This document shows positions 1,457-42,150 of a DNA stretch of 64,000 bases, piece after piece. Numbering within the stretch: position 1 is the first letter of the stretch; each line of letters starts with the position of its first letter. Origin of the DNA: Eutypa lata (lineage: Eukaryota; Ascomycota; Sordariomycetes; Xylariales; Diatrypaceae); NCBI GenBank assembly GCA_022661535.1, contig JAKULF010000003.1, forward strand, positions 6,572,001 to 6,636,000, in the 5' to 3' direction. The notes under the pieces were generated by a model that was given only the letters and a program-made list of their open reading frames with translations, had not been told where the DNA came from and searched no databases. The translations under genes and the position numbers were made by a program.

Positions 1457-2068
1457 TTCCCCGTCCAACTCTGAGGGTTGCCAGTAGCAAAGAACCAAGG
1501 AAATGCCTGGTCAGTCTCTACTGGCGCATCAGTTTGACGGAGTTGCGATGGTCGCAATAACGGTGGGATGACTTGTATCCGTCGGTCTATCTACACTTAT
1601 CTTAGGTAGATATTCAGATAGCCATCAGCAGATAGAAAGGCACAAGGTCCACATTTGCTGCTTATCGCAGCCTAGTAGTTAAAAGACAAGTCAGGCTTCA
1701 CTGGGCTTGGTTTGGTGATTGACGACGATGATCGGATGGTCCCGTTGTGTTGATAACTTAGTAGGGGTGATCCGTAAAAACTGTAACGAAATGAAACGTG
1801 AATAGTGACGGTGGTGAAATCGAGGCAATGGATTGGGAGGGAACGGGAAATCACAAGCGGGGTTTTCTCAGACGGTCGGTTGGTCCATTAATGAGAAGAG
1901 TTTCAAACGGTGCCGATGCCGAAAACATTACAGATAGATTAGGGGCTTGGCTTTCTGTATTTTGCTTAATGTTTACTAGTTAACTACGAAGTAACTATTA
2001 CTTGATTAGCTGTTTTATTATATAAACCTATATACATGTAATTACATACTTACTTAAATAAACTATAA
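1457..2068. other. Intergenic, no gene seen
   Basis: Short open frames exist on both strands but none has family features or splice-supported extension. Base composition falls steadily toward the AT-rich transposon that starts at 2069. Confidence 0.6.
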
Positions 2069-3391
2069 TTATCCGGCCATTTATTCGTTTATATTATAAA
2101 GATAATAAAAACTTTCGTAATTTTTTTCGTTTAAATATTAAATATATTACGTATATATTATAATTTAATATTAAAAAAATATAAAAGTTATTAATTAATT
2201 AAAAAATCGCGTAATTTTAAATCGAAAATATATAAAAGTTATCGATTAATTAAAAAATTACGAAAATTATAATTAAAAAAATAATTAATAAAAAAAAACA
2301 ACGATATATTATTTTTATATTATTTTTATTTAAAGTTATATTTATTATTAAAATTAAAATATCGTCGTTATTATTATAAATTTATATTTAATTAAAAAAA
2401 AATTCGAAATTATTTATAATAACGTTAATAACGTTTTTTTTTTTTTTTTTTTTTTTAAAAGTTCGTTTTTATATTATTAAAGCTTTATAAAATAATAATA
2501 TTATTATTTTTTTTTTTTTTTATTTTTTTCGTTTTCGTTTTCGTTTTTATTATTTATTTTTTATAAAATATAAAGATATTTTTCGAATTTTTTTTTAATT
2601 TTCGCGCGTTATTTTTTCGATATAAAGCGATATTTAAATCGTAAGTTTAAATAATTATATTAATAATATATATAATATAAATTTTAATAAATTATATATC
2701 GTTTAATAATATAAAAATAAATATAAAAATTATTAAAACGAAAACGAAAACGAAAATAAAAATTATTAAAGTTAAAGTTAAATTATTAAAAGTTATATTA
2801 TAATTAATAATATTATAATTATAATAATAATAAAATTATAAATTTATATATTTATAATAAGTTTTTTAATTATTATAAATATAATTTATATAAAAATTAT
2901 TATCGTTTATATATAAATTAATATAAACGTTTTATAAGTTTTTTTTATTATAATAATAAATGTATTTTTATTATATAATAATATTAAAAACTTATAATAA
3001 AGTTATATTAAAGTTTCGATTAAAACTTAAAGCTTAAAAAAAAAATTAAACTTTTTATTTTTTCGTTAATTATAAAAAAAATTACGAAAAAGTTTTATAA
3101 TCGAACGATTTAATAAAAAAGTAAAAAAAAAAATCGTTAATTTTATAATATAATAACGGCGAATTTATTTATAAATATTTTAAATAATCGTTTAAGTTAT
3201 TTCGAAAATAAAAGTTAAAATTAATTAATTATTATAATATATAATAAAATAAAAAGCGAAAAATATATTATCGATTATTAAAGTTAAAGTTAAAATCGTT
3301 TTCGCTTTTTTTTAAAAACGAAAAAAAAAAATAAAAATAAAAAAAAATTATAAATTAAATTATTTTAATTTAAAGGTTAAATTAACGAAAA

Positions 3392-3392
<1 letters not shown>

Positions 3393-3454
<62 letters not shown>

Positions 3455-3483
3455 CGTTATTATTATCGTTATTATTATTATTA
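3393..3483. repeat. (TTA)n microsatellite inside the RIP-scarred element
   Basis: About 25-30 copies of the trinucleotide ATT/TTA, with a few interruptions by CG-containing variants (TTATCG). Confidence 0.85.
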
Positions 3484-3659
3484 TTATTATAATTATTATT
3501 ATAATTTTAAAAAAATAATAATTATTAAAAAGAAAAAAAACAATAATATTAAATTATAATAAGTTATAATTATAATAATAATAATATATTTATATTTTAA
3601 TATATTATATATATTAACTTAAATTATATTATTAAAAAAAAAAATTAAAAAAAATTTAA

Positions 3660-4262
3660 ATATATTTTTTAAAAATATATAATTATATATATAAATATAT
3701 TTAATATATTTATTTAATTTAAAATTATTAAAGTAAATATATTTAATATATTTATTTAATTTAAAATTATTTATAAATATATAAAATTATTAAAATAAAT
3801 ATACTTAATATATTTATTTAATTTAAAATTACTTATAAATATATAAAATTATTAAAATAAATATATTTAATATATTTATTTAATTTAAAATTATTTATAA
3901 ATATATAAAATTATTAAAGTAAATATATTTAATATATTTATTTAACTTAAAATTATTTATAAATATATAAAATTACTTATAAATATATAAAATTATTAAA
4001 GTAAATATATTTAATATATTTATTTAATTTAAAATTATTTATAAATATATAAAATTATTTATAAATATATAAAATTATTAAAGTAAATGTATTTAATATA
4101 TTTATTTAATTTAAAATTATTTATAAATATATAAAATTATTAAAATAAATATATTTAATATATTTATTTAATTTAAAATTATTTATAAATATATAAAATT
4201 ATTAAAATAAATATATTTAATATAATTATTTAATTTATAATTATTTTTAAATATATAAAATT
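3660..4262. repeat. 62-bp tandem repeat array, about nine copies
   Basis: A unit containing TTAATATATTTATTTAATTT recurs about every 62 bp. Some units carry an extra internal duplication of roughly 19 bp (ATAAAATTATTTATAAAT). Copies differ by single transitions. It lies inside the inverted-repeat element, so it is probably an internal satellite of the transposon. Confidence 0.85.
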
Positions 4263-7200
4263 AAATATATAAGTATAATTAATATATTTATTCGATTTAA
4301 AAAATTATTTATTTAAAAAATATTAACTTAAAATTATTTATTTTAAAATATTAAATATATTTATTTAATTTATTTTTTTTATTTTAATTATAATATATTA
4401 ATTTTACGCTTTTTTAACGTATTAAGTATATTTATTTAATTTATATTTTTTATTTTATATATTATAATATATTAATATTATACGTTTTTTAACTTTATTA
4501 TATTAATATTAATTTTTTTTATATTAAATTATTTTATTATATTTAAAATAACTTTATATTATAACTTTAAAGCTTTTATTTTTATTTTATATTTAAATAA
4601 CGTTATAAATATTTATTATAAAGTTTTATAAGCTTTATATAACTTTTTTTAAAAGCCGTTAATAATTTTTTTAAAATTAATTTTTCGTTAACGAAAAATA
4701 TTAATAATATAATTTAATTTATTATTATAAAAAGAATTTTTTATTTTATAATAAAGATTAAAGTTATTATTTTTTTATAAATAAATAACTTAAATAAAAT
4801 ATTATTTTATTAAAAGCTTAAATAATAATTAATAAAGGAAAATATATTTATAAAATAATTATTATTTTCGATATTAATAATAAACGTAATAAAGCATTAA
4901 AGTAAAACGAAAATCATTTAATAATAAAAATTAAAAATATTTTTTAATATCGTTAAGTTTAAAGATTATAATTTTTTTTTTATAATAAATTATATTATTT
5001 TTATTTTTATTTTTTAAAGATTATTAAATAATTTAAAATTATTTTTTTATTTTACTTAATATGTTAAAAGATAATATTTTTAAACTTTAATTAAAAAAGT
5101 TATTATTAAAAAAAAGTTAAGTTTTTCGAAATTTATTAACGACGGCTTTAATTTTAATAAATATATTTTCTTCGTTATATTAAATAATAAAAACGTTATT
5201 AAAAAAGATATTATTATTAAACATTTATTATTTTAAATTATTAAATTTTAATTTAAAATGTTACGTTTTAACGAAATTTATTATAATATATTAAAAAAGT
5301 AAAAATATTTTTATATAAAATTAATACGTTTATTTTATAATATTTATTTATTATTTACGTCGTAAATATTTTATATTAATTTAATCGTTAACTTATTAAT
5401 AAATATTAATAATACGATTAATAAATTTTAAATATTTATTTTTCGATTTACGAATATATAATATTTTAAATATATATTCGTATATTTTTTTAAAAAAATT
5501 TTGTTTTTTATATCGTTTAAAAAAAATCTTTTTATAATAACGAATATATAAAAAATATTAAACTTTAAATATATTAAATTCGTTTTTATAACGAATATTA
5601 AAAATACGTTAAATTATTAATTATTTAACGTTAAAATTATTTATTAATATATATTTTAGTTTTTATTCGTATTTAAAATTATCGTTTTAATCGATAATTA
5701 CTTTTAAAGCTTTAAAAATTATAAAATTATTTTAATATTTAAAGTAAAAAAAAATATATAAAATTTAATTATTATATTTATTACGAACGAAAATAATAAA
5801 AAAATATTATATTTACTTAAATATCGTATTATTATAAGTGAAATTTATTAATGTAAAAATCTTTTTTTAAGTTAATATTTAAATAAACTTTTAACGAATT
5901 TATATAAACTTAATAAAAAGTATATTATTATAAACGATAACGACGTAATTATATTAATAATATATTTAAAAAAGCTTTTAAAATTATTTATTTATATTAA
6001 TAAATTAAGTTTTTTTATTTTTATAAGCATTTATATATATTAATAATATTTAAAATAAAGATTTATTAATTATTTTAAATTTAATTCGTAAAAAGTTATA
6101 AATATTTTTAATTTAAAAGGTTTTAATATATTTTAAATTAAAGGTTTTTAATATTTTATAAATTTTCGAAATATTTTATTTATTAAAAAATTAATTTTTA
6201 ATTTGTTTTAAAAATTATTAAATATAAAGTTACTTTTAAATTTATTTTTAAAAACTTATAAACATTTTAATATAATTTATATTTATACGATTTTTATAAT
6301 AATATTTATAATTATTACTTTAAAAATTAATTTTATTATTATTTTAATATTAAACGTAAATATAAGTTTAATATTAAATAACTTTTCGAATCGTTTTATA
6401 TTTACGTTTTTTATTTAAGTTTTTATTAATTTAAAAATTAAAAAAATATCTTTTATAATATCGATAACGAAAAAACTTTTTAATAATATTATTTTATTAT
6501 TTATTTTCTTTAAAACGTATATAATAAATTAAGTTTTATTATAGTTTTAATTTTTTAAATTTATTTTTTTATATAATTATTATAATAAATAAAAAGATAA
6601 TAAAAAAATTAAAGATTTTTTTTTATCGTTTTATAAAATTTTTAAATAATAAAACCGATAATTTTAAATATTATTTAAATACTTTTAATTTATATATTAA
6701 CTTTATATTAAATTTATTAAACTTTTTATTAAAAGATTTTAAAACTTTAAATAAGTTATAACTCGAGTTATTAAAGCTTTTTTTTAAATTAAAAATTTTA
6801 TTTTAATAACGAAATTTTAAACGTAAACGAAATTAATTTTATTCGGCTTATATAATAACGTTAAGTTAATCGAATATATAATTTAAAAGTAAAATATATT
6901 AACGTTTAAAATATATAAACTCGAAAAGTATAATTTTTTAAAACGCTTTTATATCTTTTTATTTGTTTAATAATGCATTTATAATTATTCGATTTATTAA
7001 TAAAAAAGGAATTTCGAAATTATTAATTATAAAGTTAAAGGTTTTAATATTATAATTATTTATTAAAAAATTAAAAAGTTTAATTTTATCGTTATTAATT
7101 AATAAAGTTTTAATTTATAATAAATTAATAAAATAATATAAAATAACTTAACTTTTTTTATACGTTTTAATAAAAAAAAACGCTTAATATTTTAAATATT

Positions 7201-8045
7201 TAAACTTTTAAATTAAAAGTAACTTTATTATAAATTTAATAAAAAATAAATTAATATTATAAAATATAAAATTAAAAAAAAAAAAAATTTATTATTTCGA
7301 AAATATAATAATTAATAAAAAAAAAATAATAATTAAAAATTAAATAATAAATTTATTATTACGCGTAATAACTTTTTTATATTAAATTTTATAATTTTAA
7401 AACTTTTAATTATTAATTTATTACGAAATTTATTATAATATTAATTCGAAAGTTAAAACGCGTTATTACTTTATATTAATAACGTAATTAATAATTTTAT
7501 TTAAACGGCATTATTAATTAATTTTTTAAAAAACTTTATTAATAAAAATAATGTTATTATAAATAAATTAAAAAGTTATTCGTTCGTTAATTAATTTATT
7601 AAATTAAAATTAATTTCGTAAAATTATTTTACGAAATTAAAATAAATATAATAATATTATTAATTAATTAAAATAAAAAAACGCGTTTATTTAAAAAATT
7701 AAAAAATTAACGAAATAAATACGATAAAAAACGAAAAAGAAAAAAGTTTAATAATCGTTAATCGTTAAAGTAAAAGCCTTTTAAAGCTTAAAACTTAAAG
7801 CTTAAAATTAATAAATTTAAAATTATTACGATAACTTTAAAATCGTTATATATAACGCGTAAAAAAGAAAAATAAAAAATGTTACGCATAAAGATATTAA
7901 TAAATTTTATACGGCTTTAAAACCCCACTGTTTTAAGCGCGATACGCGGCTAAAAAAAAGAAGTAAAGGAATTCGTTACTTTCTTTAAATTCGCTTCGAA
8001 AGTCCATGCCACCCTTGCACTACAAACGAACGGGTGGCCGGATAA

Positions 8046-9042
8046 CGCTTGCGCCTAAGTACATAGTATTTCGTACAACTTGATACTGTAACAGTATAAT
8101 CAACCTCTAATGAAAAGTAATCCAGAAAACGAATGCAGGAGATTCTAAAAACATATTCAAACTTATATAATTCTGCTCAACTCGATGAAATCGATAAGTA
8201 ATGAATACCTAAGGTAGCTTCCACTGTAGGAAGGGTACATCTAGTTATCACCACTCTCCAGACTGTTAATTACCTTTCCCCTTTCTGCCAGCAAAACTTT
8301 CCATGGTGAAAAACAGTCAAGGGTAGGCGTCACGATCCAGAGAACCTATCCTCACCAGCTCTACCAGCACCGTAACAGGTGGGTTACAACGGGTGTATGC
8401 CCGCATGGCGTGCGATTTATCACCATCCTCAGTAACCAGTAGACGCAGCGGCCGCCCTTCACATTACAAGGTTTACATGTTTCTTCGTACATATACGTCA
8501 GTGTTATAATTGATAAAGTGGATGTGCTACCGTCGATGTATCACGATACCCACCCCTCTCAACTTCCAATCGACGTCTGAAATATAGTGGTTATGAAATT
8601 GTATCATCGAAGCATGGGATTATATACTCCTATATTTCCTAGTTCCAAGATCGGGTAGGGAATCTTCAGTTACAGGCTGATGGTAAGATATATACTAATA
8701 CGCCCCTTTAGTAGCACACGTTCTTCACTGGTCATAGATCAGTATGATTGAAAATAACCCACACCAGCCCCATGCGACATGTATCAGGAGCAAGTACATC
8801 GTTAAAGAGTTATATTTCAGTATCGTCATCATAAATGCCAGCATACACACGCTAGCCGGTTATATAACCTCAACAGCTATTGTTAGCTATCCGTCTTGCC
8901 TTAGTGTCTCCTAACACCACAAGCCGCAGCAACCCATTCCGCATTCCACTGCCTTGAACTTTCTCGACCTCAGTCTTGATCCCTCAAGACTAACTGGTCT
9001 ATCGAATGGATATATTCTTGCCACAGCCAGAGCTCAACTCAT
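8046..9042. other. Intergenic, no gene seen
   Basis: Normal composition resumes at the right end of the transposon. No open frame with family features was found on either strand. It includes the 3' flank of the RiPP precursor gene. Confidence 0.6.
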
Positions 9043-9506
9043 TTACTTGCCAATAGAGTAGACAATGATGCTGTAGGTGTCCTGCTCTTTCTCTGCCTCT
9101 CGGACCGCGATCTCCTCCGCCTCGCGCTTGCCGATGGAGTACACGATGATACTATACGTGTCCTGCTCGGACTCCTCCGAGCCCCGCTTCACCTTGGCGA
9201 CGTTGTAGATGTTCTCATCCCCGGCGCTGCTGCGGGCTGCCAGGGTCTCAATGTCGCGCTTGCCGATCGAGTACTCGATGATGCCGTAGGTGACCTCGTC
9301 GATCGACTCGCGCTTGCCAGTCTCCGTCATCCGGTAGGCGAGGAGGTTGTATGCCTCGTGGCGCTTGGCCGCGACTAGTTTTGGGTGAGTAACCGACTGG
9401 ACATGCTACTGTTATTTATAATTATGTGCCACTTACGGTTCTCCAGGGGCGCAGCAACGGCGCCAGCTAGGAGACTAGCAACAATGGATAGCTTGGAGAA
9501 GAGCAT
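9043..9506 (-). CDS. Dikaritin/ustiloxin-type RiPP precursor with Kex2-delimited repeats
   Basis: Two exons, 9437-9506 and 9043-9374, join over a 62-nt intron (GTAAGT...ACTAG, 9375-9436) and give 133 residues. The first exon encodes a secretion signal, MLFSKLSIVASLLAGAVAA, invisible if only the long open frame is read. The rest is cut by dibasic sites (AKR, GKR, GKR, VKR, GKR, terminal GK) into five units. Unit 2 holds YGIIEYSIG; units 4 and 5 hold YSIIVYSIG; units 1 (YNLLAYRMTETG) and 3 (YNVAKV) look like degenerate cores. YSIG just before KR matches the position of YAIG in ustiloxin precursors. Acidic spacers separate the cores. A TTTATAAC box lies at 9561-9570. It should be secreted, cut by Kex2 in the Golgi, and its tyrosine(s) cyclised by a UstYa-type enzyme. 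A pheromone precursor is the main alternative, but there is no W/C-rich core. Confidence 0.88.
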
Positions 9507-10639
9507 TTTGGCAGATGATTCTGGATGAGGAAAACAGGTTGAGAAGGACGGTTTATTGAATCGTTATAAATTGGTCCTCTTAAGGGGGCTGAGGAGCATT
9601 GAAGCCTAGTATATGAAGAGAACACACCGGATACTTATAGACGATCCTCACATGGGGTACGGGATGCATAGGGCCAATATCTCGGCCGTTGCTGTTATAG
9701 GATAAGCAAGAGACCGAGAGACTGGAACGAAAATGAGTCTCGTGGCATCATGGATATCACAGGATAAGAACCTAGTTGCCTAGCGGAACACGGATTCCGG
9801 ATTCCCAGACGTAGGCAAGGTACATTTCGTCGGTTGTACAGCTATGACACTAATAAATTCGCTATATCTACATCTTTAGAAGCGAAATCCAGTCTTCGAT
9901 GTGAATCATCACTCGCTGCCGTCGGCCATTGGTTGCCAGGCTGCCACCCACGTAATTCTGCCTTGCTTTATCGTATATTCGCGACAGACTAACGCCGCCC
10001 GATAGAATACACCAAGAAGAAACAGGAAGGCGGAATGACCAAGTGGCTCGGGAAGTCCCAGATCAGTCATGCTTTGTCTCCAACTCGTTCCTCGAGACAC
10101 AATACTGGTCGCTGTAAAGAAGTCTCGGTCAGTCCTCCCTTTGGTCGCAGTAAGAGACTAGATGACGAGCTTTGAATTCCGTTAAACTTCGATCTCGATT
10201 ATGTATGTAGCTTAATCATCTTCATATTCTAAGCAAAAGACCACCACCAAGACACGATCAGCCCTGATCTCGCAGATCACAGTACATCTATGGAGCTGCG
10301 GCTAGCTAGCCGAGCATCGTATCGTGTCGTGTCGTGCCGCTGACAAGGGGGGTCGAATCGTCATTGCGGCTCCTTCCGGCGATCCAGGGGGTTTTAACGG
10401 AAACTACTGTCTCGAACCGAAGGATTCGACTGTTCGATGCGGGGGAGATAGCTCGCTTACTACACAGCGCCCTCCCGAAAAGCCCGAAAAGGTAAACGAC
10501 GGCTCCGCCATCGACGGCAGTTTCCGCTCCTTATCTTGGGTGGATCCCCGGCAGGACCTTACGTACAAGCGTGTTGGCAACGGAATTTATCATATTTTCT
10601 TGGAGTGGTCATTGTTCTCCTTCGTCACATTGAACGACC
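9507..10639. promoter_or_regulatory. Divergent intergenic region between RiPP precursor and UstYa gene
   Basis: This 1.1-kb stretch separates two genes transcribed away from each other, so it must hold both promoters and could co-regulate them. No recognisable operator was identified. The open frame at 10324-10647 overlaps the UstYa start, shows no family features and is taken as 5' leader. Confidence 0.5.
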
Positions 10640-11648
10640 ATGGATGATATAGTTCGAATATTGACTCGGCTCTTTCATGATCAACCAGGCTCATGGGGAG
10701 CCGAAGAGACAGTCGATGCCAAAGCAGCCTTACTTAAGGAAGATGGAGAACATAGGCGTTTGTCATCTATGAGAGGACAGCGGGAGAGGGGGAGGGGATG
10801 GCTGGTCCTCACAATTTTCAACGGATTGCTATTTACCGGAGCCATAATTCTATATGCTGCCACATGGGTGAAGTTTTCGGGGCGAAACTATTGCCTCAAA
10901 GTGACCTCAACATACTGTAGGTTCTCTAAGCCGAGAGTTTCGGAGTTTCTCACAAGAAAATTGCATCGGGCGCTAATTTCCGTGACGAGCAGCCCCTGTT
11001 TTCGATGATATTGACATGTCGTTGACCTACACGCTATTGAATGGAAGTCTCTGGATCGGAGATAACCCCTCTGTGTGGCGAGGCTCCCCAGATTCCAAGG
11101 AGACGGAGAAGGCCTGGGGAAGCTTCGAAACAGTGAGGCCCATCGCTCTGACAAAGGCTCAAGTCCTAGCAATGGGCAAGGATCCCGCCGCGGTCTCCAA
11201 GTTCAACGATGACTACTGGCATCTGGGCGATGACGCTTATGTCGGTGCATTGGACCTATTCCACCAAGTGCACTGCTTGAATGTTCTCCGGGAAGAGGCC
11301 TTCGGCGACTGGGGACGCGCAGGCGAGAAAAGACCTACATGGGATGATATCCACTGGGTCCATTTGCGGCACTGCACCGACATGTTGATGCAGAACTTGC
11401 TGTGTCATGCTGATGCGGGCTTTCTGACTTACAACTGGGTAGAGCACGAATCGCATCCATTTCCCGATATGAGTGTGCAGAAACAATGCAGGGATTGGCG
11501 ACAGCTCGTCGACTATCGTGACGAGCATGGTGTTAACTTGACGAAATATATCGAATGGGTGAAGCCGGATGGTTTACAGCAGCTCAAGCAGCCTGAAGAA
11601 TATTGGCACCACCGTGGTGAACACGATAAGCCGCATCACCATGACTGA
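10640..11648 (+). CDS. UstYa/DUF3328 family oxidase (RiPP cyclisation)
   Basis: Exons 10640-10916 and 10993-11648 join over a 76-nt intron (GTAGGT...GAGCAG), giving 310 residues; the splice restores TSTYSPVFDDID, a typical UstYa segment after the membrane anchor. Residues 54-75 (WLVLTIFNGLLFTGAIILYAAT) are one transmembrane helix behind a basic cytosolic stretch. The two family motifs HxxHC are present: HQVHC at 183-187 and HLRHC at 216-220. Length matches the family. UstYa-type proteins are thought to oxidise and cyclise core peptides in the secretory pathway, as for ustiloxin, asperipin and victorin; some act in NRPS pathways (cyclochlorotine). Its position 1.1 kb from, and divergent to, a Kex2-repeat precursor supports the RiPP role. 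The C-terminus is His-rich (HHRGEHDKPHHHD). No damage seen. Confidence 0.93.
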
Positions 11649-14538: not shown

Positions 14539-15230
14539 ATACTAGATATCATTGTATCGGATTTGGTACCCCTGCGACGCCACGGCAACTACACCGCCAT
14601 CGTCCTGCTTATATACAGTATTGGCACTACGCTAGGTCCTTTCATAGGAGGTGCTATTGCTGAGTCTGGCCACTGGCGTTGGGTTTTCTACATCAATCTT
14701 CCGGTTGGCGCCGTCTCGTTTACGATGTTATTCCGCTTCTTACATGTCAACTACCGCCGTGACTCGGCGTGGGTAGACTAGCTTAAGCGAATTGCCTTTT
14801 GGGGCAACGGCATACTTATTGTGAGCTGTACTGCCATCCTAATCACGCTCAGCTGCGCAGGCACCCGATACGCCTGGTCCTCGTGGCATACTCTTGTCCC
14901 GTTACTCCTCGCCTTTGCCGGATTCTGCCTGTTCGCCGTGCTTGAGACGAGTCGGTGGGCCCCATCGCACCCCGGAATGCCTCCGCGCCTCTTCACGAAT
15001 CGCACGTCAGCCATCGTCGCGATAAACACCTTCCCGAACTCAGCTCTCAGGCACTGGAGCCTATTCTTCTTGCCCGTCTATTTCCAGTCGGTGGAGCTGG
15101 CCAGTCAGAGACGCGCCGGCATCTGCTTGATTCCTTTAGCTCTGTTCACCATCCCGAGCGCCGCGGCAGGGGCCGCCCTTACGTATGGAATCACATGCAC
15201 CCCCGAGAAGGCAATTATGCGATGGGGGGG
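14539..15230 (+). pseudogene. MFS drug:H+ antiporter (DHA14-like) fragment
   Basis: The frame opens in the middle of a transporter (IIVSDLVPLRRHGNYTAI), then shows GTTLGPFIGGAIAE and WRWVFYINLPVGA, the motif region of 14-helix multidrug exporters. A TAG at 14779-14781 interrupts it, and the same frame continues with hydrophobic helices to about 15230. The first helices and the last half are missing. The TAG could be a C-to-T change of CAG. It lies between two other broken metabolism genes, so it is probably the export pump of a lost cluster. Confidence 0.75.
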
Positions 15231-15316
15231 GGAGAAAGCGCCAAAACGGTGCAAGAGCTCCAGTCAATATCGGTATTATATTGGGGTAAATACACTTATT
15301 CAGTCATATTCCAAGA

Positions 15317-17300
15317 TCATTCCGTCGTGCTTAGTATGAAGCGAGCTCTAAGCTCCGGCTTCACCCGGAATCCATATGTGATGAAATCTTTTTCGAAGTT
15401 CAGCTCTTTCCCGCCAACCCTGGCAAGATCAAAAGTCCAAAGCAGTTTTGCAATGAAGAGTCTAGTTTCCCTCCACGCTACCTCTTTCCCAAGCATACTC
15501 TTGGGCCTAGGCTGAAGGGGTGAATGGCCTTGGTGTCGTCTCTCGAAAATTTAGGGTCATAGAGCGGATGGTCTACAGGGAGGTACCGCTCCGGCCGAAA
15601 ATAGAGCGGATCGTGAAAGTAGAGTGGGCTCCGCGACGTAGCGAACATGCTGGTCTGGCAGTAAACCTAAGAGTGTCTATGCGTTAGTAGGGGCTGCTCT
15701 TAGGGGGATGTTGGGAACATGTGAAAATAGGAAACACGAAAATCCCATAAGAGTCAAACTGTGTAGGAATCAGGGGCGAAGGGTTGATAATAGACAAAAA
15801 TGGAGCTCTGTCTTACCCCCTTTGGAACGTATATCCCATCCACTTTGGCGCCCGGGCTAATCCGTGGCAAACCTAGATTATTACTAGGGAACATACGGAG
15901 CGACTCTTCCAGACAAGCATTGAGATACGGCAGAGATACCAGTCCGGTTGGTTTGATATCGTCGCAACTGCTGAACCTGCCTCGAATCTCTTGGACTAAA
16001 GTCTTATGGCTTTCTGGTGTCGCAAGGAGGCACATAAGGGTACTGTAGAACCAGCTCGAGACGGGCTCGAACCCCCCAAATAAGAGCTGTGTGGTCAACT
16101 GCTCTAAGTGGCGCATTTCCTTGGGGCTCTGCGGGATGACGCCGTCGGCGGGCATTAGCTGCTCGAAGAAATCGAGCTGCTCTGTGCTCCCTTTCTGACA
16201 CAGGCGTTTCTGAACTTCCGCCCTACCAGTTTTCACCATCTCGCGCATACTGGCGATCTTGGCCACGGGAAGGAACATATTCTTGACCCATTTCAGAGAC
16301 GGGAACCTTCGTGAGACCTGCTCCATGGTTTTATACTGGTTAAATGCCTGGACCACGTCCATATACACCGAGTTCTTCACTAAAACGATGATTAATATTA
16401 GATCGGCGCGAAATACAAGGAACATGCGGTGTAGGTACATATAAATCAAGATGAATTCGCGAAGAAGCACAGCACTAGGTAAGGTTAGACTTACTGTCTC
16501 TCATCTGATTCATTTCGTGGTTATAGGTAATATCCGCGGAGATATCCATGGCCAGCCAGTTGCACCAGGTGGCGAGATCAATTGCCCTCCGGAGAATCGC
16601 CCAGTAGCTTCATCTTTTCAATGAAAAGATCGATATATTTATGCATTTTGGGTTCCTTGGCAGTTATCGCGCGAGGGCTGAAGGCCGGCAAGAGCTGTTT
16701 GGCCACGTTTCGATGGCGTACGGGATCTCGCTCGAAAGCAATCCCGCCGTGCTCATCCCCACGGTCGTTCATCTCCGTCTTGACGAACGTCTCGTGGTTC
16801 CTGACATGCGGTGTGCGCATATCTAAGCCATGAAAAATTGAGAACCCCGGCCAACCGTAATGGCAACAGGGGATGCCTGCTTACTTACCTACGAAAGCCT
16901 GCAGCCTCATGAACAGAAGTTCATTGGGGGAAATGCGGACGATGTCGCCTACACGACAGTCTCAGAAATCAAGCTGGATATGACGCGATTCAGATCCCAA
17001 CCTACCATACTTCTTCAGGACCCTCTCGGTAGCTCAGGGGTAACGCCCTGATAGCCTAGATGAGACTTTTAATCGACATATCAAAGCCATATTACGGACT
17101 GTAGCTATTACTTATCAGTAATACGCATACCATATATTAGAAATAGCTGCAATCTTAGGGCCAGGGTACTTCGATAATGGGTGAAGGTAGAGAAGATAGA
17201 TACATCGGGTGACCGCATAGACCGAAATGGCCCCCAAGATCGTGGCGAGTAGGTGGCCGGCTACTGTGGCGGCTAGCGAGGCTTCTCCGGTGTTAGCCAT
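15317..17300 (-). pseudogene. Cytochrome P450, multiply disrupted
   Basis: The order of a fungal microsomal P450 is clear: start at 17300 with a membrane anchor and [10 protein letters not shown], then ISPNELLFM, GIAFERDPVRHRNVAKQL, the ExxR helix (EESLR), FRPERYLP, and the haem loop PFSLGPRVCLGK with its Cys. Introns such as 15667-15816 and 16380-16494 still have good splice sites. Breaks: in-frame TGA at 17115-17117 and 17034-17036 (both where Trp is usual), an extra base near 16579-16586, and a missing base near 15478-15488 just after the haem loop. The I-helix reads GGFEPVSS, without the usual Thr pair. The gene is almost certainly dead. It lies tail-to-tail with the MFS remnant. Confidence 0.88.
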
Positions 17301-17770
17301 GCTCGCGGTGTCACAGAATGACAGAGGGGATTGGGGGAAGGCTGGAAGAAGTCAAGGGAGAAACAGATTCAATAAAAGGGTCTACATTTAAAGAGGGGCA
17401 CACACCGTCCTTCCAACACAGCTAACAATCAGCCAATGAGAAACGGCTTTCGTCTGTTCGCGTTGCAACATCTAAGCATTCAGCTGCAAGTCCATTGCCC
17501 TTGCATTAAATATACGAAGGGTGGCATATTAAGCCAGTCGCTAGCGTTTCCTTGGGCAACATATATCATAGCTCTATTACTATAAATACTAGAGACATCA
17601 TCTATCATGGTTCACTCATACAGCATCAACGCTTCTCTACACTTGTATAACCCCCCATAGAACAGAACCTTTAGCAGCTTACCCGCCCGGTTGGAAGTCG
17701 GTCACGGTATGAGTCTCATCGTGATGATGTTCGGGCTGCGCGAGCCCTCGCGTGCTGGAGTCATCTAGAT

Positions 17771-18355
17771 AGACTCGTCATCGTGCTGACGGGGGTGACG
17801 GGATCCCTAGGCTAGGCGATCCTGCAAAACCTAGTCGCGGACTTGCGCGTGGCACGCATACATTGCGTCGCGGTCCGGAACGTTTCCGCCGACGATCGCT
17901 ACACCCACGTAGCAGCTGGTTGTTGCGGGGCTGTTGGAGAGGAGGGGGGGAGCACAAGGTACGCCTTCATGAAGGCGATCGTGCACTGCGGCGCCGACAC
18001 GTCGTTCGCCAATACGTACGCGTCGCTCCGCGCATGCAACCTGTAGTCGACAGTCAAGCTCATGGCCATGGCCGAGTCGTGCATGCCCGCCTTTCACTAC
18101 GTCTCAACGCTGTCAGTAGGGCACGTCCTCGCAGCAGCAGCCGCAGCGGGGACGGGACAAGGAATGCCGGGCGGGAGCGGGAGCAGGAGTAGGGAAGGAA
18201 GAGACCCGCCAGCTCAAGACGACAACGTCGTCTTCAGCCCCGTCTTGGCGGCGGCCTACGAACCGGAGCAGGTGCCCGTGGTCCCGGGTGGCCGAGTCCA
18301 GGGCGCGCTCAATGTAGTACCCGCCGAGACGGTCGCGCAGGGCGTCACCAGCTAG
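17771..18355 (+). pseudogene. Thioester-reductase (NAD-binding_4) domain fragment
   Basis: One frame reads VIVLTGVTGSLG (Rossmann TGxxGxLG), a stop, AILQNLVADLRVARIHCVAV, then AIVHCGADTSFANTYASLRACN, a TAG at 18044-18046, and FHYVSTLSVGHVL. The spacing matches the terminal reductase domain of fungal NRPS, PKS-NRPS or NRPS-like (adenylate-forming reductase) enzymes, which releases the thioester-bound product with NADPH. Both stops sit where Gln would fit (CAG to TAG). No adenylation or carrier domain is found upstream, so only this domain remains. After about 18125 the family pattern fades. Confidence 0.65.
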
Positions 18356-20330
18356 GAACATTCACCGAATTCCACGTTGTTGCGTTCTGTTATATTCTGG
18401 GGAGTAGCTGAGACATTTACAGTCCATGTGGAGTCGGCTTGGAAGAAGATCCATATAGGTAGCTTGATAACCAAGTTCCAAGCACACTCATATCAAGCTC
18501 TGTGAAATCCTGGTATTCCACATTCCGAATACACATCAAGATGTATCTGGCCGCCGCCTACCCGACTCTCTTCATACTCTTATTCAGTGTTTACTTACGT
18601 ACGGAGGTACGAGTAAGGTGAACAGAAGGGTTATTGTTTCGCGTTTCTTTTTTTGCTGCGAAAAAGCTGTCCCAAATAGGAATGTAACTCAATATGCGCT
18701 ATGCGGCTCGTGGGTATAGGTCTAGGTATCTCTCATTGTCCCTACCAGTTTGTATGGCCATTGATCACTTACCTAATACAAAGCTACTATTATGTACTGA
18801 TGGTCGTAAGAAGAGGGAGGCCTCACGGAGATGAAACTGACACTCATAACTCGGAGTACTATGCATGTTCATAAAGTTACCTAGATAGGAGGTAGTCAAA
18901 GTGATGATGCTGTGATGTTGGACACTTTCTATACCTTGTATACCTTGGTTGTTTAGTTATGCAATACGTAAATGCGAATGGGGCTCAATTATGGAATTTG
19001 GTCCGAAGTCGGAATAATATACTTGAGTGACGAAAGCGAGAGCGGGACTTGCCAAGATGAGGACCGAATGGAATCAAACGGTACGGATTAGTTACTTATC
19101 TTATCAGATCCGAATCTCCGCCCCATTTTGACCGGATCTTGGATCGTATTTTTACTTCCCCCCGCTGCCCCCCCTCCCTTACGAGTTACCCCGCTGATCT
19201 TGCACCGACGAGCATCCGATTTATTCCTCAAATAGAAGCTCCTCTTGAAAATTTTCATCAGCTACAAATTAGTGCAACCCCCATTATGATCGTATTACGT
19301 ACCAGCAAGTCCAAACCAGCGGGTAATGGGCAAATGGTTGCGAGCCTATGGATACTACCTACGAAGTACTACCCAGTTTCGTCTCGGTCACTTAATACAG
19401 AGAATTATGCGCATACAGACACCGATACATACATACAACGCGACAAACATAGAGCGCGCAACACATCCCGATGTCTATACAAATACAACTTCCTTGTTAA
19501 CTAGAAAACGCTCTTTAGATATTGCCGGAATCAAGTTTGACAAGACGCCTTCGACTACGTACTTACCACTTACCACTTACTTAGGCAACATGTGAACATG
19601 GTCTCTCCACACCGAAAGCTAGTCCTAGTAACCACCCAAGTACGGATGATACTCACCTGATTGGTCATTAGACTACATTTCAACATGTAACCAGAGCTCG
19701 TCATTAGATCCCAAGCTCTGGGTACTTCCTACTAGGGAGACATTTCCCGCAGGTAATTGTCCTACTAGACGGGCGGTTGGCCGAGTCTAAATCACGGCCA
19801 TGATCATGCTACCCAATCTATCCTTGCAAACCCTCGAACCCTTGGAACATGTCTCGCCAAGCTGAATTATCTGATCCATTTAGAGTTATCTGATCCGGCT
19901 GCTGGTGGAGTCTTAACGGTATCGGTCCCATTTTCGCTATATTCTAACTTGGCTTCCATCGCAGGCTAGAACCGTTAACCGATCAAGACCCCAGTGAACC
20001 CAGCTCCGGTCATCGTCCATTAGGTAGGTTGGAAACCTGGTTCGCCCCTGTGGTATGCAGGAACCAGACGTCGCCATCATGTGATTTTTGCGGGCTTTTC
20101 TAGATCCCCAAGAGGTCTATCTAAGTTCGTGCCAATTCCCAGAAAGGTGCATGTACAACCTGCAGCTTCTGCAGCTTATATTTCTCTTTAAAGAGATTTC
20201 TCCAAATCATACCTCTTAGGGGACATATCAGTAGTCCGTTAAGTGCGTGGAGTAGATGTAGACATATTCAGACCAAGATTAGAACAAATCATATTTTCTT
20301 TTTGCAGGCTCTCATGCCTAAGGACCTGCC
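18356..20330. other. Intergenic, no gene seen; NRPS upstream region
   Basis: Nearly 2 kb without family-like coding sequence. Frames at 19139-19595 have no domain pattern. The last few hundred bases must contain the NRPS promoter. No site was assigned. Confidence 0.55.
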
Positions 20331-23300
20331 ATGGACACCAACATCCTATCCCCCGCTACCACCGATGCGCTTCACGCCGATGAAGTAGAATCTATTAGCA
20401 ATATATCAACACCACCTACAGAGCTCGAGGAAGAAGGTCTCCCGAGAGACCAGTTGGAGCAGATATGGGAATGGAATACTCCGTTACCGCCTACTTTAAC
20501 AACATGCATGCACGATATAGTAGCTGAGCAGGCGAAGAAAAGTCCAGATCGGCCGGCGATAGATTCATGGGATGGATCCTTCACGTACGGAGATGTTGAT
20601 TCCAAATCAAATCAGCTTGCGGCGTATCTAGTATCGCTAGGTGTTGGAATCGGGACGAATGTACCGCTCTGCTTCGAGAAGTCCAGATGGACTGTTGTTG
20701 CGGTGCTCGCCGTGATGAAGGCTGGAGGAACATTTGCGCTCATGGATCCCAGCCAGCCGGAAGGACGACTACGTACGATCGTAGAACAGACCGGCGCTAA
20801 CCTCATCGTAACGTCAAAGTTACAAGAGAGTCTAGGTTCCCAGATCTCGGACGGCATAAGGGTGACGGTGTCGGACGAGCACTTTGAGAGCTACAACACT
20901 GTCTCCGATCTTGCCACTGTGCCAGGCAATACGAACCTCTATATCCAGTTCACCTCGGGAAGTACCGGCAAACCAAAGGGTGTTCTCGTCACCCATGAGA
21001 ATTATACCAGCGGCGCCATACCCCGTGCAGACATCGTAGGATACCGCGCACACTCTCGGGTTCTTGATTTCGCATCGTATGCTTTTGATGTTTGCATCGA
21101 TTGCATGCTCTGCACTCTTTCCGTCGGAGGCTGTCTGTGTATCCCCTCGGATGCGGACCGCGTCAACGACTTGAGTGGGGCGATCCGGAAGATGAACGTC
21201 AACATGGCACACATGACCCCGTCGGTAGCGCGCGTCTTAGATGCGGATATTATACCGTCCCTCGAGGTACTCGGACTCGGAGGCGAGGCGATCTCTGCTG
21301 GTGATGCCGCCAAGTGGAGTAAGAACACCAAAGTTATCAACGCTTATGGCCCTTCGGAATGTACTGTCGGTTGTGCGGTCAACGGAGACGTGGGGGCAGA
21401 AAGCACGAAGCCGCAGGTCAGTATTGGTAGGGGGGTTGGTGCGGCCTTATGGATCGTCGACCCCATTGATCATAATCGGCTTGCCCCCATCGGCACCGTT
21501 GGTGAGCTCCTCGTTGAAGGGGCTATAGTTGGTCCGGGATATCTGGGTGAACCTGCGAAGACAGTTACAGTATTTATCAGCGATCCAAAATGGCTCCTGG
21601 TCGGTAGCCCTAATCACGAAGGCCGAAAGGGGCGACTATACAAGACGGGAGATCTCGTTAGATACGATACAGATGGGACCATCGTCTTTGTCGGAAGAGG
21701 CGACCAGCAGGTGAAGTTACGAGGCCAGAGAATTGAACTAGCAGAAATCGAATACCATATGCGCGACAGACTACCCCCTGAAACCCGTGTAGTTGCCGAA
21801 GTCATCAAGCCGGGGGGACCTACGGCCGAACCGACCCTAGTAGCCTTTGTCGCGGAGAGAGCTACGCTGGTGAAGGAATCAGACGACTTATTAGGTTCAT
21901 TGTCTCCGCAGTTGCAAGACGCCCTCGCGAACATGGGCTCGTTTCTTGCAGAAAACCTCCCAATATACATGGTACCAGCAGCATACATCCCGCTACAGAC
22001 GATGCCGCTCTTAGTCTCGGCAAAGACTGACCGCAAGCGCCTGCGTGAACTGGGCTCTTCTCTCAGCAGGAAAGATATCGCCGGCTTCGCAGCTGTGGGT
22101 AAGGAGAAAAGGAAGCCGAGCACACCCATGGAGAAAGCGCTCGCCGAAGTTTGGAAAGAAGTTCTAGGCGCCGATTTGGAGGTCAGCGCGAGCGACAACT
22201 TCTTCGTCTCGGGCGGCGACTCTCTTCGCGCGATGAAGCTCGTCGCCGCCGCTCGAAGCCAGCAGATCGCTCTCTCTGTCGGTGAAGTCTTGACCCACCC
22301 CGTCCTTTCGGATATGGCGCTCGTAGCAAAGCCCCACTCGGGTGATTCTATCGTCGAGATCTCCCCCTTCTCCCTTATCGATCAGCAATGGTCAGCGGAC
22401 TCTGCTCGGGCTGACTGTGCTGCTCTTTGCGAAATCGATGCATCCCTTATCGAGGACGTGTATCCGTGTACGCCTCTCCAAGAAGCGCTGATGGCCCTAT
22501 CTGCCAAGGTCAGTGAAGCTTATGTCGCCCAAAGGGTTGTGGAGCTGCCCGATGAGATGGCGGCACAAAAGTTGCAGGATGCTTTCAAGGCAGCATCCAT
22601 TGACAGCCCTATTCTACGAACCAGGATAGTCCAGGTCCCCGGGCATGGATTGATGCAGGTGCTCGTAAAGGACGACTTTGATTGTCGATATGAGTCTGGA
22701 CAGAGTCTAAACGAGTACCTATTGGCAGATCGCGATGAGCATGTGCAGCTCGGCAAGCCTCTGGTCCGTTACGGACTTGTCCTCAATGACAAGACAACTG
22801 AGAAGTCACACTTTGTTCTAACGATGCACCATGCATTATACGACGGATGGGCTATGCCTTTGACAGTAGAACGAGTAAACCGAGCTTACAACGGTCTCAC
22901 GACCCAACGGCCAGCCGAATTCAAGCACTTCATTAAATACCTAGGCGAGATGGGCCGCCAAGAGTCGGAAACTTACTGGAGAGAGCGACTAGATGGTGCC
23001 ATCGGCGAACAGTTTCCTCCTCTTCCCTGGTCGGGTTATCAACAACAAGCTGATTCACTGCTAGAGCATTACGTTCATACTGGAAGACCAACGGCTGGAT
23101 TCACGATTGCAACGGCTATCCGAGGGGCTTGGGCTCTCTTGGTATCGTTGTATACATCATCAAACGATGTCGTATTTGGTGAGACCCTCACTGGTCGCAA
23201 TGCTCCGATCGCCGGTGTAGAGGAGATTGAAGGACCTATGATTGCGACCATTCCCGTTCGCGTCGCCGTAGACCCGAAAGCAACTGTCTCGGAATACTTG

Positions 23301-25646
23301 CAAGAAATTCACAGTCAATCAGTCTCAGGGATACCACACGAGCACTTCGGGCTTCAGCACATTCGGCGATTAAGCCCCGATGCCCGAGAAGCCTGCGAAT
23401 TGCGAACCGGCTTAGTCCTGCATCCAAACGCCGATGAAGCCGAAACGAATGGAGACGACAAGCAGCCTGCTGATGGTTTCGTTCCTGCTGGAGATGCAGA
23501 AGCCGCCCAAGAGGCACTAAAGTTCAACACATATGCCTTGATGCTCGTGTGTTCGTTAGATCCTCAGGGCTTCTTGATCATGGCCAGCTTCGACTCCAAG
23601 ACGGTCATCAGCCCTCGGATGGAGAGAATGCTCACCCAGCTTGGGTCGCTTGTGCGACAGTTCTGCCAAACCCCCGATGTTCACTGCGGGGATCTTGCCA
23701 TACTAGCTGAGCAAGATGTTAAGGAGTTAGCCCGACTGAGTCACGTAGGCGCAACTAACTTGGATGCGTCTGCTTTGATCCCCAGTGATCCGGGTGTCAA
23801 AGTTACCAGAACATGGCTCGTTGACCCATCAGATACAGAACGATTAGTTCCAGTTGGTGGTGTAGGTGAACTCCTGGTGCAGTGCGAAGGAGCTCCCGCC
23901 ACCGATTCATCGATGCAACCCCCTAAGTGGCTTGATGAGCCACAGAACGACCAGCTCATTAGGACAGGAAAACTTGCGAAGTATGACAGCAACGGTAGCC
24001 TTATCTTTGTGGAACGAAGGGCTCAAATCGACGTGTCCCGACCCAAGCGGCAACAGAAACAACTATCGCTCACTTCGGCAAAGCAGAAAAAGCTACGACA
24101 AGTTTGGAGTCGAGCAATAGGAATCAGCGAGGAAGAGATCAATCTTAATGACAGCTTTTTCCAGCTCGGAGGCGACTCTATCGGGGCTATGAAGCTGGTC
24201 TCGGAGCTTCGCGCCGAGGGGCTAGAGATAACGGTAGCTGAAATCTTCAAGCACAGGACGTTGTACGACATGACGAAGGTGCTAAAGGAATTGATACCAG
24301 CCCAAGACAGCGCGCCAGAGGAAAAGGCCAACCCCTTTTCGCTTCTTGAAATACCAGATGTGGAGAACTTCATTCGTGATAAGGTACAGCCTTTCCTCAG
24401 TCAACAGAACGCGAAAATCCAGGATATACTACCTGCGCGCCCCCTTCAACAAGTCGCAGTAAAAGGAACGACCCAACTACCGCGATTCTCAGCACGATAC
24501 GAGCTCTTCCATCTCGACGGCGTGATCGGCGATACGATAAACACCGCACAGCTTTTCAAGAGCTGCCAAGAGCTAGTTGCGAGGAACGAGATCCTCCGGA
24601 CGGTCTTCGTCGAAGATGCTGGGAAATGTTTCGCCGTTGTCCTCGAGGAACTGCAAGTCGCCATAGAGCAGTACGAGATCGAGGGGGATCTCGATTCCTT
24701 CGTCCACAAGCTATGCGATATGGATGTCCAGACCCGAATGCCGCTGGGCTCTTCGTTTGTCAAGTTCATGTTCGTCCGCGGAGAAGGCGCTCGGAACTGT
24801 CTAGTCCTGCGCATCTCCCACGCCCAGTATGACGAGATCTGCCTCGTGGGGCTCTTGCGACAACTCGGAGATCTATACGAAGGCCGGAAAGTCGCGGACT
24901 CTGTGCCGTTCTCGTCGTTCGTCTACCATATCGTGAACAAGAATATCCCTCGGAGCATACCGTACTGGAGGGAACTCCTGCAAGGGTCTTCCCTCAGCGT
25001 TCTACGTCCAGACAAGCCGCTGTCCTCGAGAGTACCCGCGGATATCACGAGGACGATGGACATCTCGGCTCGGCTCAAGGATATCACAGTCGCGACGCTT
25101 CCCACTGCAGCCTGGGCTCTCTGCCTCGCCCGCCGTCTGTCATCAAGAGATGTGCTATTCGGCGAGGTTGTGAGTGGCCGCAATATCGACCTACCGAATG
25201 CCGATGCCGTTATGGGACCGACTTGGCAGTACGTGCCCATGCGCGTCAAGTTCGAGCCGGACTGGAAAGGGGTTGACCTCCTCGACTACGTCCAATACCA
25301 GCACATCGCTAGTGCGCAACACGAGTGCATGGGGCTTGTCGAGATCGCGCGGCAATGTACCGATTGGCCGGAAGACGTGGATTGGTTCGACTCGGTCGTG
25401 CATCAGGACGTGTATCATGTGGAAGAACTCAAGTTCGGCAGTGCGGATTGCCGCTTGGAAACGGTATACCCCCATTACGAACCCCTGAGGGAGTGGAAAT
25501 GCCAGGCCTTCGTGAAGGGCGATAGCCTCGCCATAGAGATCGTCACGTTTGAGGACTGGATCGACGTGGCTAAGGAGTTGCTTGATGAGCTCGAGGGCAT
25601 CATGACGCAGTTGGTCAACCGACCAAATGAATTGCTTTTCACATAG
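20331..25646 (+). CDS. Nonribosomal peptide synthetase, A-T-C-dA-T-C (NPS6/SidD-like order)
   Basis: A single exon of 1771 residues. Adenylation domain about 50-590: FTSGSTGKPKG at 207-217, NAYGPSE, YKTGDLVRYD, and FDVCIDCM in the substrate-pocket region (Asp at the amino-acid-binding position). Carrier 1 about 600-670, GGDSLR with phosphopantetheine Ser 631. Condensation 1 about 705-1130, HHALYDGW. Then about 100 residues of a degenerate adenylation remnant (GELLVQCEGA; TGK where TGD is expected; the core is missing). Carrier 2, GGDSIG with Ser 1283. A terminal condensation domain with SHAQYDE instead of HHxxxDG, and no thioesterase. This order is that of NPS6/SidD synthetases that assemble fusarinine-type extracellular siderophores, and a terminal C domain suits cyclising release. 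The siderophore role is inferred from architecture only; no siderophore partner genes are in the window. Confidence 0.93.
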   Translation: MDTNILSPATTDALHADEVESISNISTPPTELEEEGLPRDQLEQIWEWNTPLPPTLTTCMHDIVAEQAKKSPDRPAIDSWDGSFTYGDVDSKSNQLAAYLVSLGVGIGTNVPLCFEKSRWTVVAVLAVMKAGGTFALMDPSQPEGRLRTIVEQTGANLIVTSKLQESLGSQISDGIRVTVSDEHFESYNTVSDLATVPGNTNLYIQFTSGSTGKPKGVLVTHENYTSGAIPRADIVGYRAHSRVLDFASYAFDVCIDCMLCTLSVGGCLCIPSDADRVNDLSGAIRKMNVNMAHMTPSVARVLDADIIPSLEVLGLGGEAISAGDAAKWSKNTKVINAYGPSECTVGCAVNGDVGAESTKPQVSIGRGVGAALWIVDPIDHNRLAPIGTVGELLVEGAIVGPGYLGEPAKTVTVFISDPKWLLVGSPNHEGRKGRLYKTGDLVRYDTDGTIVFVGRGDQQVKLRGQRIELAEIEYHMRDRLPPETRVVAEVIKPGGPTAEPTLVAFVAERATLVKESDDLLGSLSPQLQDALANMGSFLAENLPIYMVPAAYIPLQTMPLLVSAKTDRKRLRELGSSLSRKDIAGFAAVGKEKRKPSTPMEKALAEVWKEVLGADLEVSASDNFFVSGGDSLRAMKLVAAARSQQIALSVGEVLTHPVLSDMALVAKPHSGDSIVEISPFSLIDQQWSADSARADCAALCEIDASLIEDVYPCTPLQEALMALSAKVSEAYVAQRVVELPDEMAAQKLQDAFKAASIDSPILRTRIVQVPGHGLMQVLVKDDFDCRYESGQSLNEYLLADRDEHVQLGKPLVRYGLVLNDKTTEKSHFVLTMHHALYDGWAMPLTVERVNRAYNGLTTQRPAEFKHFIKYLGEMGRQESETYWRERLDGAIGEQFPPLPWSGYQQQADSLLEHYVHTGRPTAGFTIATAIRGAWALLVSLYTSSNDVVFGETLTGRNAPIAGVEEIEGPMIATIPVRVAVDPKATVSEYLQEIHSQSVSGIPHEHFGLQHIRRLSPDAREACELRTGLVLHPNADEAETNGDDKQPADGFVPAGDAEAAQEALKFNTYALMLVCSLDPQGFLIMASFDSKTVISPRMERMLTQLGSLVRQFCQTPDVHCGDLAILAEQDVKELARLSHVGATNLDASALIPSDPGVKVTRTWLVDPSDTERLVPVGGVGELLVQCEGAPATDSSMQPPKWLDEPQNDQLIRTGKLAKYDSNGSLIFVERRAQIDVSRPKRQQKQLSLTSAKQKKLRQVWSRAIGISEEEINLNDSFFQLGGDSIGAMKLVSELRAEGLEITVAEIFKHRTLYDMTKVLKELIPAQDSAPEEKANPFSLLEIPDVENFIRDKVQPFLSQQNAKIQDILPARPLQQVAVKGTTQLPRFSARYELFHLDGVIGDTINTAQLFKSCQELVARNEILRTVFVEDAGKCFAVVLEELQVAIEQYEIEGDLDSFVHKLCDMDVQTRMPLGSSFVKFMFVRGEGARNCLVLRISHAQYDEICLVGLLRQLGDLYEGRKVADSVPFSSFVYHIVNKNIPRSIPYWRELLQGSSLSVLRPDKPLSSRVPADITRTMDISARLKDITVATLPTAAWALCLARRLSSRDVLFGEVVSGRNIDLPNADAVMGPTWQYVPMRVKFEPDWKGVDLLDYVQYQHIASAQHECMGLVEIARQCTDWPEDVDWFDSVVHQDVYHVEELKFGSADCRLETVYPHYEPLREWKCQAFVKGDSLAIEIVTFEDWIDVAKELLDELEGIMTQLVNRPNELLFT

Positions 25647-35190: not shown

Positions 35191-35437
35191 TGAGTTTTTC
35201 TTTGTTTTTAGTTTCATAAAAGCCGAGAAGTTCTTGTTTTATAATTTAAATCCCGTTATAATGCGAAAATAAAAAGCAAGCTTTACGGCATTTTTAATAT
35301 ATTCGAATTTTTATAAAAGTTATTATTTTTTTAAAAAATAAAAATATTAATTATAAATTATTATATTTAAAATTATTTATAAAATTTAATAATAAAATTA
35401 TTTTTAATAATTAAAAAATATAATTAAAAAATATTTT

Positions 35438-35722
35438 TTTATTTATTTTATTTATTTTATTTATTTTATTTATTTTATTTATTTTATTTATTTTATTTAT
35501 TTTATTTATTTTATTTATTTTATTTATTTTATTTATTTTATTTATTTTATTTATTTTATTTATTTTATTTATTTTATTTATTTTATTTATTTTATTTATT
35601 TTATTTATTTTATTTATTTTATTTATTTTATTTATTTTATTTATTTTATTTATTTTATTTATTTTATTTATTTTATTTATTTTATTTATTTTATTTATTT
35701 TATTTATTTTATTTATTTTATT
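35438..35722. repeat. 9-bp minisatellite (TTTTATTTA)n, about 31 copies
   Basis: A nearly perfect array of TTTTATTTA units spans about 285 bp within an AT-rich block. Confidence 0.93.
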
Positions 35723-35822
35723 AATTTTATCGGTTTTATTAATTTTATCGGTTTTATTAATTTTATCGATTTTATTAATTTTATCGGTTTTATCGGTTTT
35801 ATCGGTTTTATCGGTTTTATTT
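35723..35822. repeat. Variant 9-bp units TTTTATCGG / TTTTATTAA
   Basis: Directly after the perfect array, in phase with it, the last three bases of each 9-mer vary: TTTTATCGG, TTTTATTAA and one TTTTATCGA. CGG to TAA needs only C-to-T and G-to-A changes. Confidence 0.85.
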
Positions 35823-41886: not shown

Positions 41887-42150
41887 TGTAGGATCTAGTG
41901 GAACGCAGGGAATTTATAGCAATTGTAATATAGTTATTGATAATATTTTCGTTACAGGATGACCTAGATCTAAAGGACCTGAAAGTCCTATATATACTAA
42001 TTACAGGACGCATTAACTACTTATTATATTCGTATTTGCATAAAGCTATCGTTAAACGTATACGTTACCTAGGTATATAGATCCTTAAAATTAACAAAGT
42101 AGTTAAATAAAGTTAGTTATTTATAAAAAATTAATTTATAAAATTTTAAA
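41887..42150 (+). repeat. Left direct repeat of the insertion (LTR-like)
   Basis: 264 bp, gapless partner of 47289-47552. Its outer (left) half is nearly unmutated; its inner half is AT-converted. Confidence 0.8.

Follow-up and report, generated by a model that had tools for sequence, protein, structure and literature searches.

In a 64,000-nucleotide stretch of the Eutypa lata genome (hereafter the window), a two-exon gene quite probably encodes a precursor of the dikaritin, or ust-RiPS, type, which would be served by an adjacent UstYa gene and whose repeated cores would be crosslinked. Judging from the repeats, the core is most likely a nonapeptide, YSIIVYSIG in two copies and YGIIEYSIG in one. 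The dikaritin type had been proposed in an earlier note on this DNA, and it is now supported by the neighbouring gene: a UstYa (DUF3328) oxidase, whose start codon lies 1134 bp from that of the precursor, matches PF11807 (E 1e-43, 150 bits against a cut-off of 25) and carries two HxxHC motifs. The precursor is probably a new member of the dikaritins/ust-RiPS with a core new to the searchable literature, within a general kind of system that is already known.

Table 1. Features of the window, in positions of the 64,000-nucleotide stretch.
Feature	Position	Strand	Description
Precursor gene	9043..9506	minus	two exons, 133 aa; frame open once the 62-nt intron is removed
Exon 1	9437..9506 (70 nt)	minus	signal peptide and start of pro region
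Intron	9375..9436 (62 nt)	minus	phase 1, GTAAGT...CTAG
Exon 2	9043..9374 (332 nt, including TAA stop)	minus	remaining pro region up to KR, five Kex2-type units
Unit 1, HEAYNLLAYRMTETGKR	9310..9360	minus	diverged core YNLLAYRM at 9351-9328
Unit 2, ESIDEVTYGIIEYSIGKR	9256..9309	minus	core YGIIEYSIG at 9288-9262, then KR
Unit 3, DIETLAARSSAGDENIYNVAKVKR, ending ...DENIYNVAKVKR	9184..9255	minus	spacer or degenerate core, without second tyrosine
Unit 4, GSEESEQDTYSIIVYSIGKR	9124..9183	minus	core YSIIVYSIG at 9156-9130, then KR
Unit 5, EAEEIAVREAEKEQDTYSIIVYSIGK-stop	9043..9123	minus	core YSIIVYSIG at 9075-9049, then K and stop
Head-to-head intergenic region	9507..10639	.	about 1.1 kb; candidate two-way promoter, by layout alone
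UstYa (DUF3328) oxidase gene	10640..11648; exons 10640-10916, 10993-11648	plus	311 aa; PF11807
Acyl-CoA thioesterase-like pair of frames	13.6-14.4 kb
MFS stretch	14539-15339	plus	frame break, ends missing
P450 stretch	15300-17350	minus	interrupted frame
Thioester-reductase-like fragment	17816-18352	plus	weak, below family cut-off; looks broken or truncated
NRPS	20322-25646	plus	1774 aa; one adenylation, two carrier and two condensation domains

The precursor and its repeated cores

The precursor opens with MLFSKLSIVASLLAGAVAA followed by PLEN, which was identified by eye as a signal peptide. A short pro region closing in KR comes next, and then five Kex2-type units (Table 1). A signal peptide (by eye) followed by repeated cores between Kex2 sites is the organization by which dikaritin precursors are defined. 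The signal peptide and the Kex2-delimited units described earlier were borne out, the latter by reading the KR sites, and the coordinates of the proposed two-exon model proved correct, with an open frame over all 133 residues. Splicing at 9436-9375 is predicted from the consensus sites and the open frame. Two other gene models were discarded: a plus-strand frame at 8980-9378, taken as an antisense by-product, and an extra 3' exon (a GTAAAT overlaps the stop codon), for which neither a one-frame downstream translation nor a six-frame scan gave a further matching unit. When searched against the 54.5 Mb genome (29 contigs), the precursor matches its own two exons only, i.e. it is present in a single copy.

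The three cores of the earlier note are present, and YSIG stands directly before KR, KR and a lysine followed by the stop codon. The count was incomplete, since unit 1 holds a further core, diverged but built on the same pattern, that had been overlooked. This core, YNLLAYRM, matches the others in its two tyrosines and at the aliphatic positions; when the residues outside the cores were shuffled 5000 times, 8 shuffles scored as high against the three cores. The YNVAKV of unit 3 may be a degenerate core; its score as a core (4.67) is below the mean shuffle maximum (5.4) and not distinguishable from chance. Overall, Y-x-[IL]-[IL]-x-Y-x-[IM] is kept in four of the five units and YSIG before a basic site in three. 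As unit 1 repeats the two-tyrosine spacing, the repeating element is Y-x-[IL]-[IL]-x-Y-x-[IM] and not YSIG alone.

This bears on the length of the product, for which a tetrapeptide or a nonapeptide had been put forward. The true core could be YSIG, closed into a single ring of the ustiloxin type, with the upstream YSII acting as a recognition sequence. Indeed, YSIG shares its Y-x-I-G form with YAIG and YVIG and directly precedes KR, and three of the five units end in it while their first half varies (YSII, YGII). We nevertheless regard the tetrapeptide as doubtful. More units retain the first tyrosine with its two neighbouring aliphatic residues (four of five) than retain YSIG itself (three of five). 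In ustiloxin and phomopsin precursors, according to the available text of PMC6339444, acidic residues stand immediately before the tyrosine (EDYXI). The window cores do not show this motif, and their acidic spacer precedes the first tyrosine (EQDTYSII), not YSIG directly; the residues before the first tyrosine read DTYSII or VTYGII, and those around the second IVYSIG or IEYSIG. Finally, a clustered tyrosinase is absent, though ustiloxin cyclisation needs one. Thus, with a two-tyrosine block that repeats and an acidic spacer ahead of its first tyrosine, the tetrapeptide half of the earlier alternative becomes less likely and the nonapeptide is retained as the likeliest product.

The pattern is unusual within the window. 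Coding matches to Y-x-I-I-x-Y-x-I number 4 in the 64 kb, against 0.22 expected, a count reached in none of 100 shuffles; three of them lie in the precursor gene and one in an AT-only island. A scan of the 64 kb for at least three matching nonamers before dibasic or terminal-lysine sites returned the precursor gene alone, and 40 first-order Markov resamplings of 49 kb (main AT islands excluded) gave no such case. At the scale of the genome, the coding pattern YxIG-K-[R/S-type] has 33 matches, among which the only close pair (132 bp) is the one within the precursor gene. YxIG-KR shows no genome-wide enrichment (33 matches vs 53 for the backward control). For Y-x-I-I-x-Y-x-I the genome-wide counts are swamped by AT-only sequence and carry no information (at least 400 and 366 matches on the two strands; backward control, at least 400 and 356), so that the test within the window is the one relied on.

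Units 4 and 5 contain identical 14-residue blocks, EQDTYSIIVYSIGK, encoded with 7 codon differences; all 7 are silent and none changes an amino acid. Silent options make up 25 of the 126 single changes available to the 14-codon block, which gives 7 silent changes out of 7 a naive probability of 1.2e-5, presuming that changes are independent and equally likely. Because the two units differ by synonymous changes only, their core peptide appears to be under selection at the peptide level. Over the same 14 codons, unit 2 differs from units 4 or 5 by 3 silent and 5 amino-acid changes, with 3 of the latter in the spacer and 2 at core positions 2 and 5.

The adjacent UstYa gene and the surrounding locus

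The UstYa and precursor genes are divergent, and no gene is recognised between them. The two HxxHC motifs of the oxidase are HQVHC and HLRHC, the H-C of the second being invariant in 6-row and 8-row alignments of paralogues; an N-terminal hydrophobic helix was recognised by eye. The 76-nt intron reads GTAGGT...GAGCAG. A sequence comparison with the PDB brought up unrelated proteins alone, all of them weakly similar (E 0.5-0.7), and a structure prediction of the domain from the eight-row alignment had a mean pLDDT of 44, too poor to use.

That the cluster holds a DUF3328/UstYa gene with two HxxHC motifs agrees with the UstYa-based definition of dikaritins reported in the available part of PMC12048977. 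The older five-gene definition includes several DUF3328 genes, a tyrosinase, a methyltransferase, and transporter proteins or peptidases. The window holds one PF11807 match, and tyrosinase gave 23 exon matches genome-wide with none in the window. No genome match to an S41 peptidase was obtained, in a search that reads exon by exon and that a split gene could escape. Tyrosinase being absent from the window and S41 unmatched in the genome, parts of the original definition are thus missing. The genome-wide search for a kexin P-domain yielded 0 candidates, which we read, as an unproven explanation, as insensitivity of the search to split exons. No methyltransferase was found among the 19 open window frames given to Pfam (one of which is the precursor's own), and no intact transporter was recognised near the precursor, the MFS stretch looking incomplete. 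The P450, thioesterase, MFS and NRPS of Table 1 were considered as pathway genes and set aside: the P450 and MFS look broken, and nothing links the others to the precursor.

Readings that leave the oxidase out of account were also weighed. Ile and Val abound in the hydrophobic cores, and such beta-prone repeat peptides could be structural, for instance surface-active or amyloid-like once secreted; amyloid-like surface peptides of Kex2 origin have reportedly been described in another fungus, in a study of the Rep1 repellent. A structural role is nevertheless highly improbable here, as it leaves the adjacent UstYa unexplained and conservation within a unit covers just nine or so residues. The precursor could also be a Kex2-processed repeat protein that frees linear signalling or pheromone-like peptides next to an unrelated UstYa gene. 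Its spacers after KR are of the EAE type, like the spacers of yeast pheromones. Moreover, most Kex2-repeat proteins in the survey of PMC7329392 have no UstYa, its available text counting 22% of 7878 with one nearby. We consider release of linear peptides quite unlikely, since UstYa is here the neighbouring gene, head to head with the precursor, and since what the units have in common is their pair of tyrosines and their aliphatic positions. In the same survey, as far as its available text goes, the position adjoining Kex2-repeat genes is where UstYa-type genes are most frequent, and all but three of the pheromone-type Kex2-repeat genes are without UstYa; for linear pheromone precursors, the share with no UstYa gene nearby is 98.6-100% (PMC7329392).

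The locus could also be a decayed remnant, in which the precursor and UstYa persist as relics without a product. The P450, MFS and thioester-reductase-like stretches alongside look broken, and a 5.7 kb island of 8% GC lies to the left of the precursor. Decay is improbable in our view because the precursor and UstYa frames are both open and the synonymous-only change between two repeats indicates constraint.

Low-GC islands occur at four places in the window (2001-7750, 35251-35750, 37251-39250 and 42001-47250), with mean GC of 5-11%; two 500-base steps of the first island have only 2-3%. Island GC of this level is lower than usual for fungal repeat-induced mutation.

Predicted product and relation to known systems

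For a dikaritin precursor served by the adjacent UstYa, the following route can be proposed. The signal peptide would route the precursor into the secretory pathway (ER), where the membrane-anchored UstYa would oxidatively crosslink the tyrosine side chains of the core, before or after Kex2 cutting. Kex2, itself assumed, would cleave after KR, a carboxypeptidase would take off KR or the last K to leave a core ending at Gly, and aminopeptidases would trim the acidic spacer. Both halves of the core carry Y-x-I, which is crosslinked in ustiloxins and phomopsins, so that by analogy one or two Tyr-O-Ile ether rings are plausible in the product. The small one-UstYa layout, together with the doubled Y-x-I motif, leads to the tentative proposal of a bicyclic nonapeptide, made with one UstYa and without a tyrosinase, in which two ustiloxin-type Tyr-O-Ile rings (YSI and YSI) follow each other; this specific structure is possible, though we hold it with limited confidence. 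Its computed [M+H]+, 4 H below the linear peptide, is 1010.519 for YSIIVYSIG and 1010.483 for YGIIEYSIG; the values computed for the linear forms are 1014.5506 and 1014.5142, and those for a single crosslink 1012.5350 and 1012.4986, while the tetrapeptide YSIG would have 439.2187 linear and 437.2031 crosslinked. Such a double-ring dikaritin scaffold would be one not described in the searchable literature. If the dikaritin reading is right, a core with two tandem Y-x-I motifs and a single UstYa joins a class with few solved products. The locus would then offer a test of whether a single UstYa is able to close both Tyr-Ile rings of a peptide, and of whether Y-x-I cores can do without a tyrosinase.

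Ustiloxins and phomopsins (YXIX cores; G-10 type, Umemura 2020) are among the closest known systems. The precursor shares with them Y-x-I, YSIG resembling YAIG and YVIG, and KR after the core, and it has the YXIX core of this type; the cores published in the available text of PMC7329392 include YAIG, YVIG, YVIP, YTIG and YFIG. It differs in placing two tandem Y-x-I motifs inside one conserved nonamer, in lacking a clustered tyrosinase and an S41 match, and in having one UstYa where the available descriptions give two or five. For ustiloxin B, UstQ (the tyrosinase), UstYa and UstYb are all required and KexB acts in processing, according to the accessible parts of PMC6514808 and PMC4740483. Tubulin-binding toxins are among the relatives of the ustiloxin type, as is Neurospora POI2, required for sexual development (PMC7329392, in part).

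A single UstYa without a tyrosinase fits better, by analogy, with the layouts of asperipin and the epichloecyclins than with that of ustiloxin. Asperipin-2a (aprA/aprY, Aspergillus flavus) has a bicyclic core, for which one UstYa-type enzyme is proposed to make two ether rings; like the window, it combines a core with several tyrosines and one UstYa, with no tyrosinase in the four-gene cluster as described in the available part of PMC6514808. Its core, FYYTGY, is unrelated in sequence to that of the window, where no intact transporter was recognised and no isoflavone-reductase-like gene was found among the 19 frames scanned. The epichloecyclins (gigA, Epichloe) are cyclic nona- and octapeptides from imperfect repeats, made by a small cluster with one DUF3328 gene, which resembles what is predicted for the window (PMC7317419, PMC9233826, as far as available). 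Unlike the window, their core has an N-terminal Ile and an internal Tyr (PMC9233826), and the four-gene cluster has 27-residue repeats and a kexin gene inside it (PMC7317419), again from the accessible text.

The earlier statement that no RiPP with this core has been described holds for the searchable literature, with the qualification that the YXIX cores listed above are published. Indeed, no paper pairing YSIG with Kex2 was found. YSIG as a whole word returned no fungal paper by title among the matches listed, and the literature on dikaritins, UstYa and fungal RiPP products gave no two-motif nonapeptide core among the matches listed. As surveys span thousands of repeat precursors (7878 in the available text of PMC7329392), the sequence may already stand in a table.

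Other UstYa loci in the genome

PF11807 has 37 matches in the genome. The 36 outside the window fall in 22 stretches (7-10 kb), grouped by eye into 18 places, and all 22 were scanned for repeat precursors, counting KR, RR and K-stop sites and leaving KK aside. A clear Kex2-repeat precursor is present at three of these places (L011, L018 and L030), all the stretches compared being UstYa stretches, and the genome thus carries several distinct UstYa-linked Kex2-repeat precursors. At 14 of the 18, nothing or chance-like matches only were seen; hence UstYa in this genome does not as a rule come with a repeat gene close by.

The precursor of L011 (3514-3944, plus strand) has AEVDYNTLG-KR / AEIDYNRLG-KR repeats, with one UstYa match at a distance of about 1.2 kb. 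This UstYa is the closest paralogue of the window UstYa among the 22 stretches (33% over 199 aa, E 2e-35). L011 also resembles the window in having one UstYa nearby and a phase-1 GTAAGT intron at the same place, but its core, Y-N-[TR]-L-G, has a single tyrosine where that of the window has two.

Between the UstYa matches of L018, a minus-strand precursor with its start codon at 4728 contains six long repeats (VEEVDAGLFTSLDGVWASYGYDEKK; ASYGYDEKKKR). At L030 (G000:C14:2552000-2561999), a minus-strand frame at 2675-2266, read by eye, has ten D[SA]D[DN][VI]WLW repeats beside UstYa exons. Nine of the WLW copies stand before KK or KR and the tenth before the stop codon, and a signal-peptide-like frame lies upstream, which makes this a Kex2-like repeat precursor with a tryptophan core. 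A weaker candidate near a UstYa exon of L022 (about 2053-2262, minus strand) has two units ending AWG-KR and is without an intron after the signal peptide. In L018 the intron after the signal peptide is of phase 1 and 63 nt long. Three precursors, those of the window, L011 and L018, thus have a phase-1 intron directly behind the signal peptide, which hints at their common descent despite cores that look unrelated.
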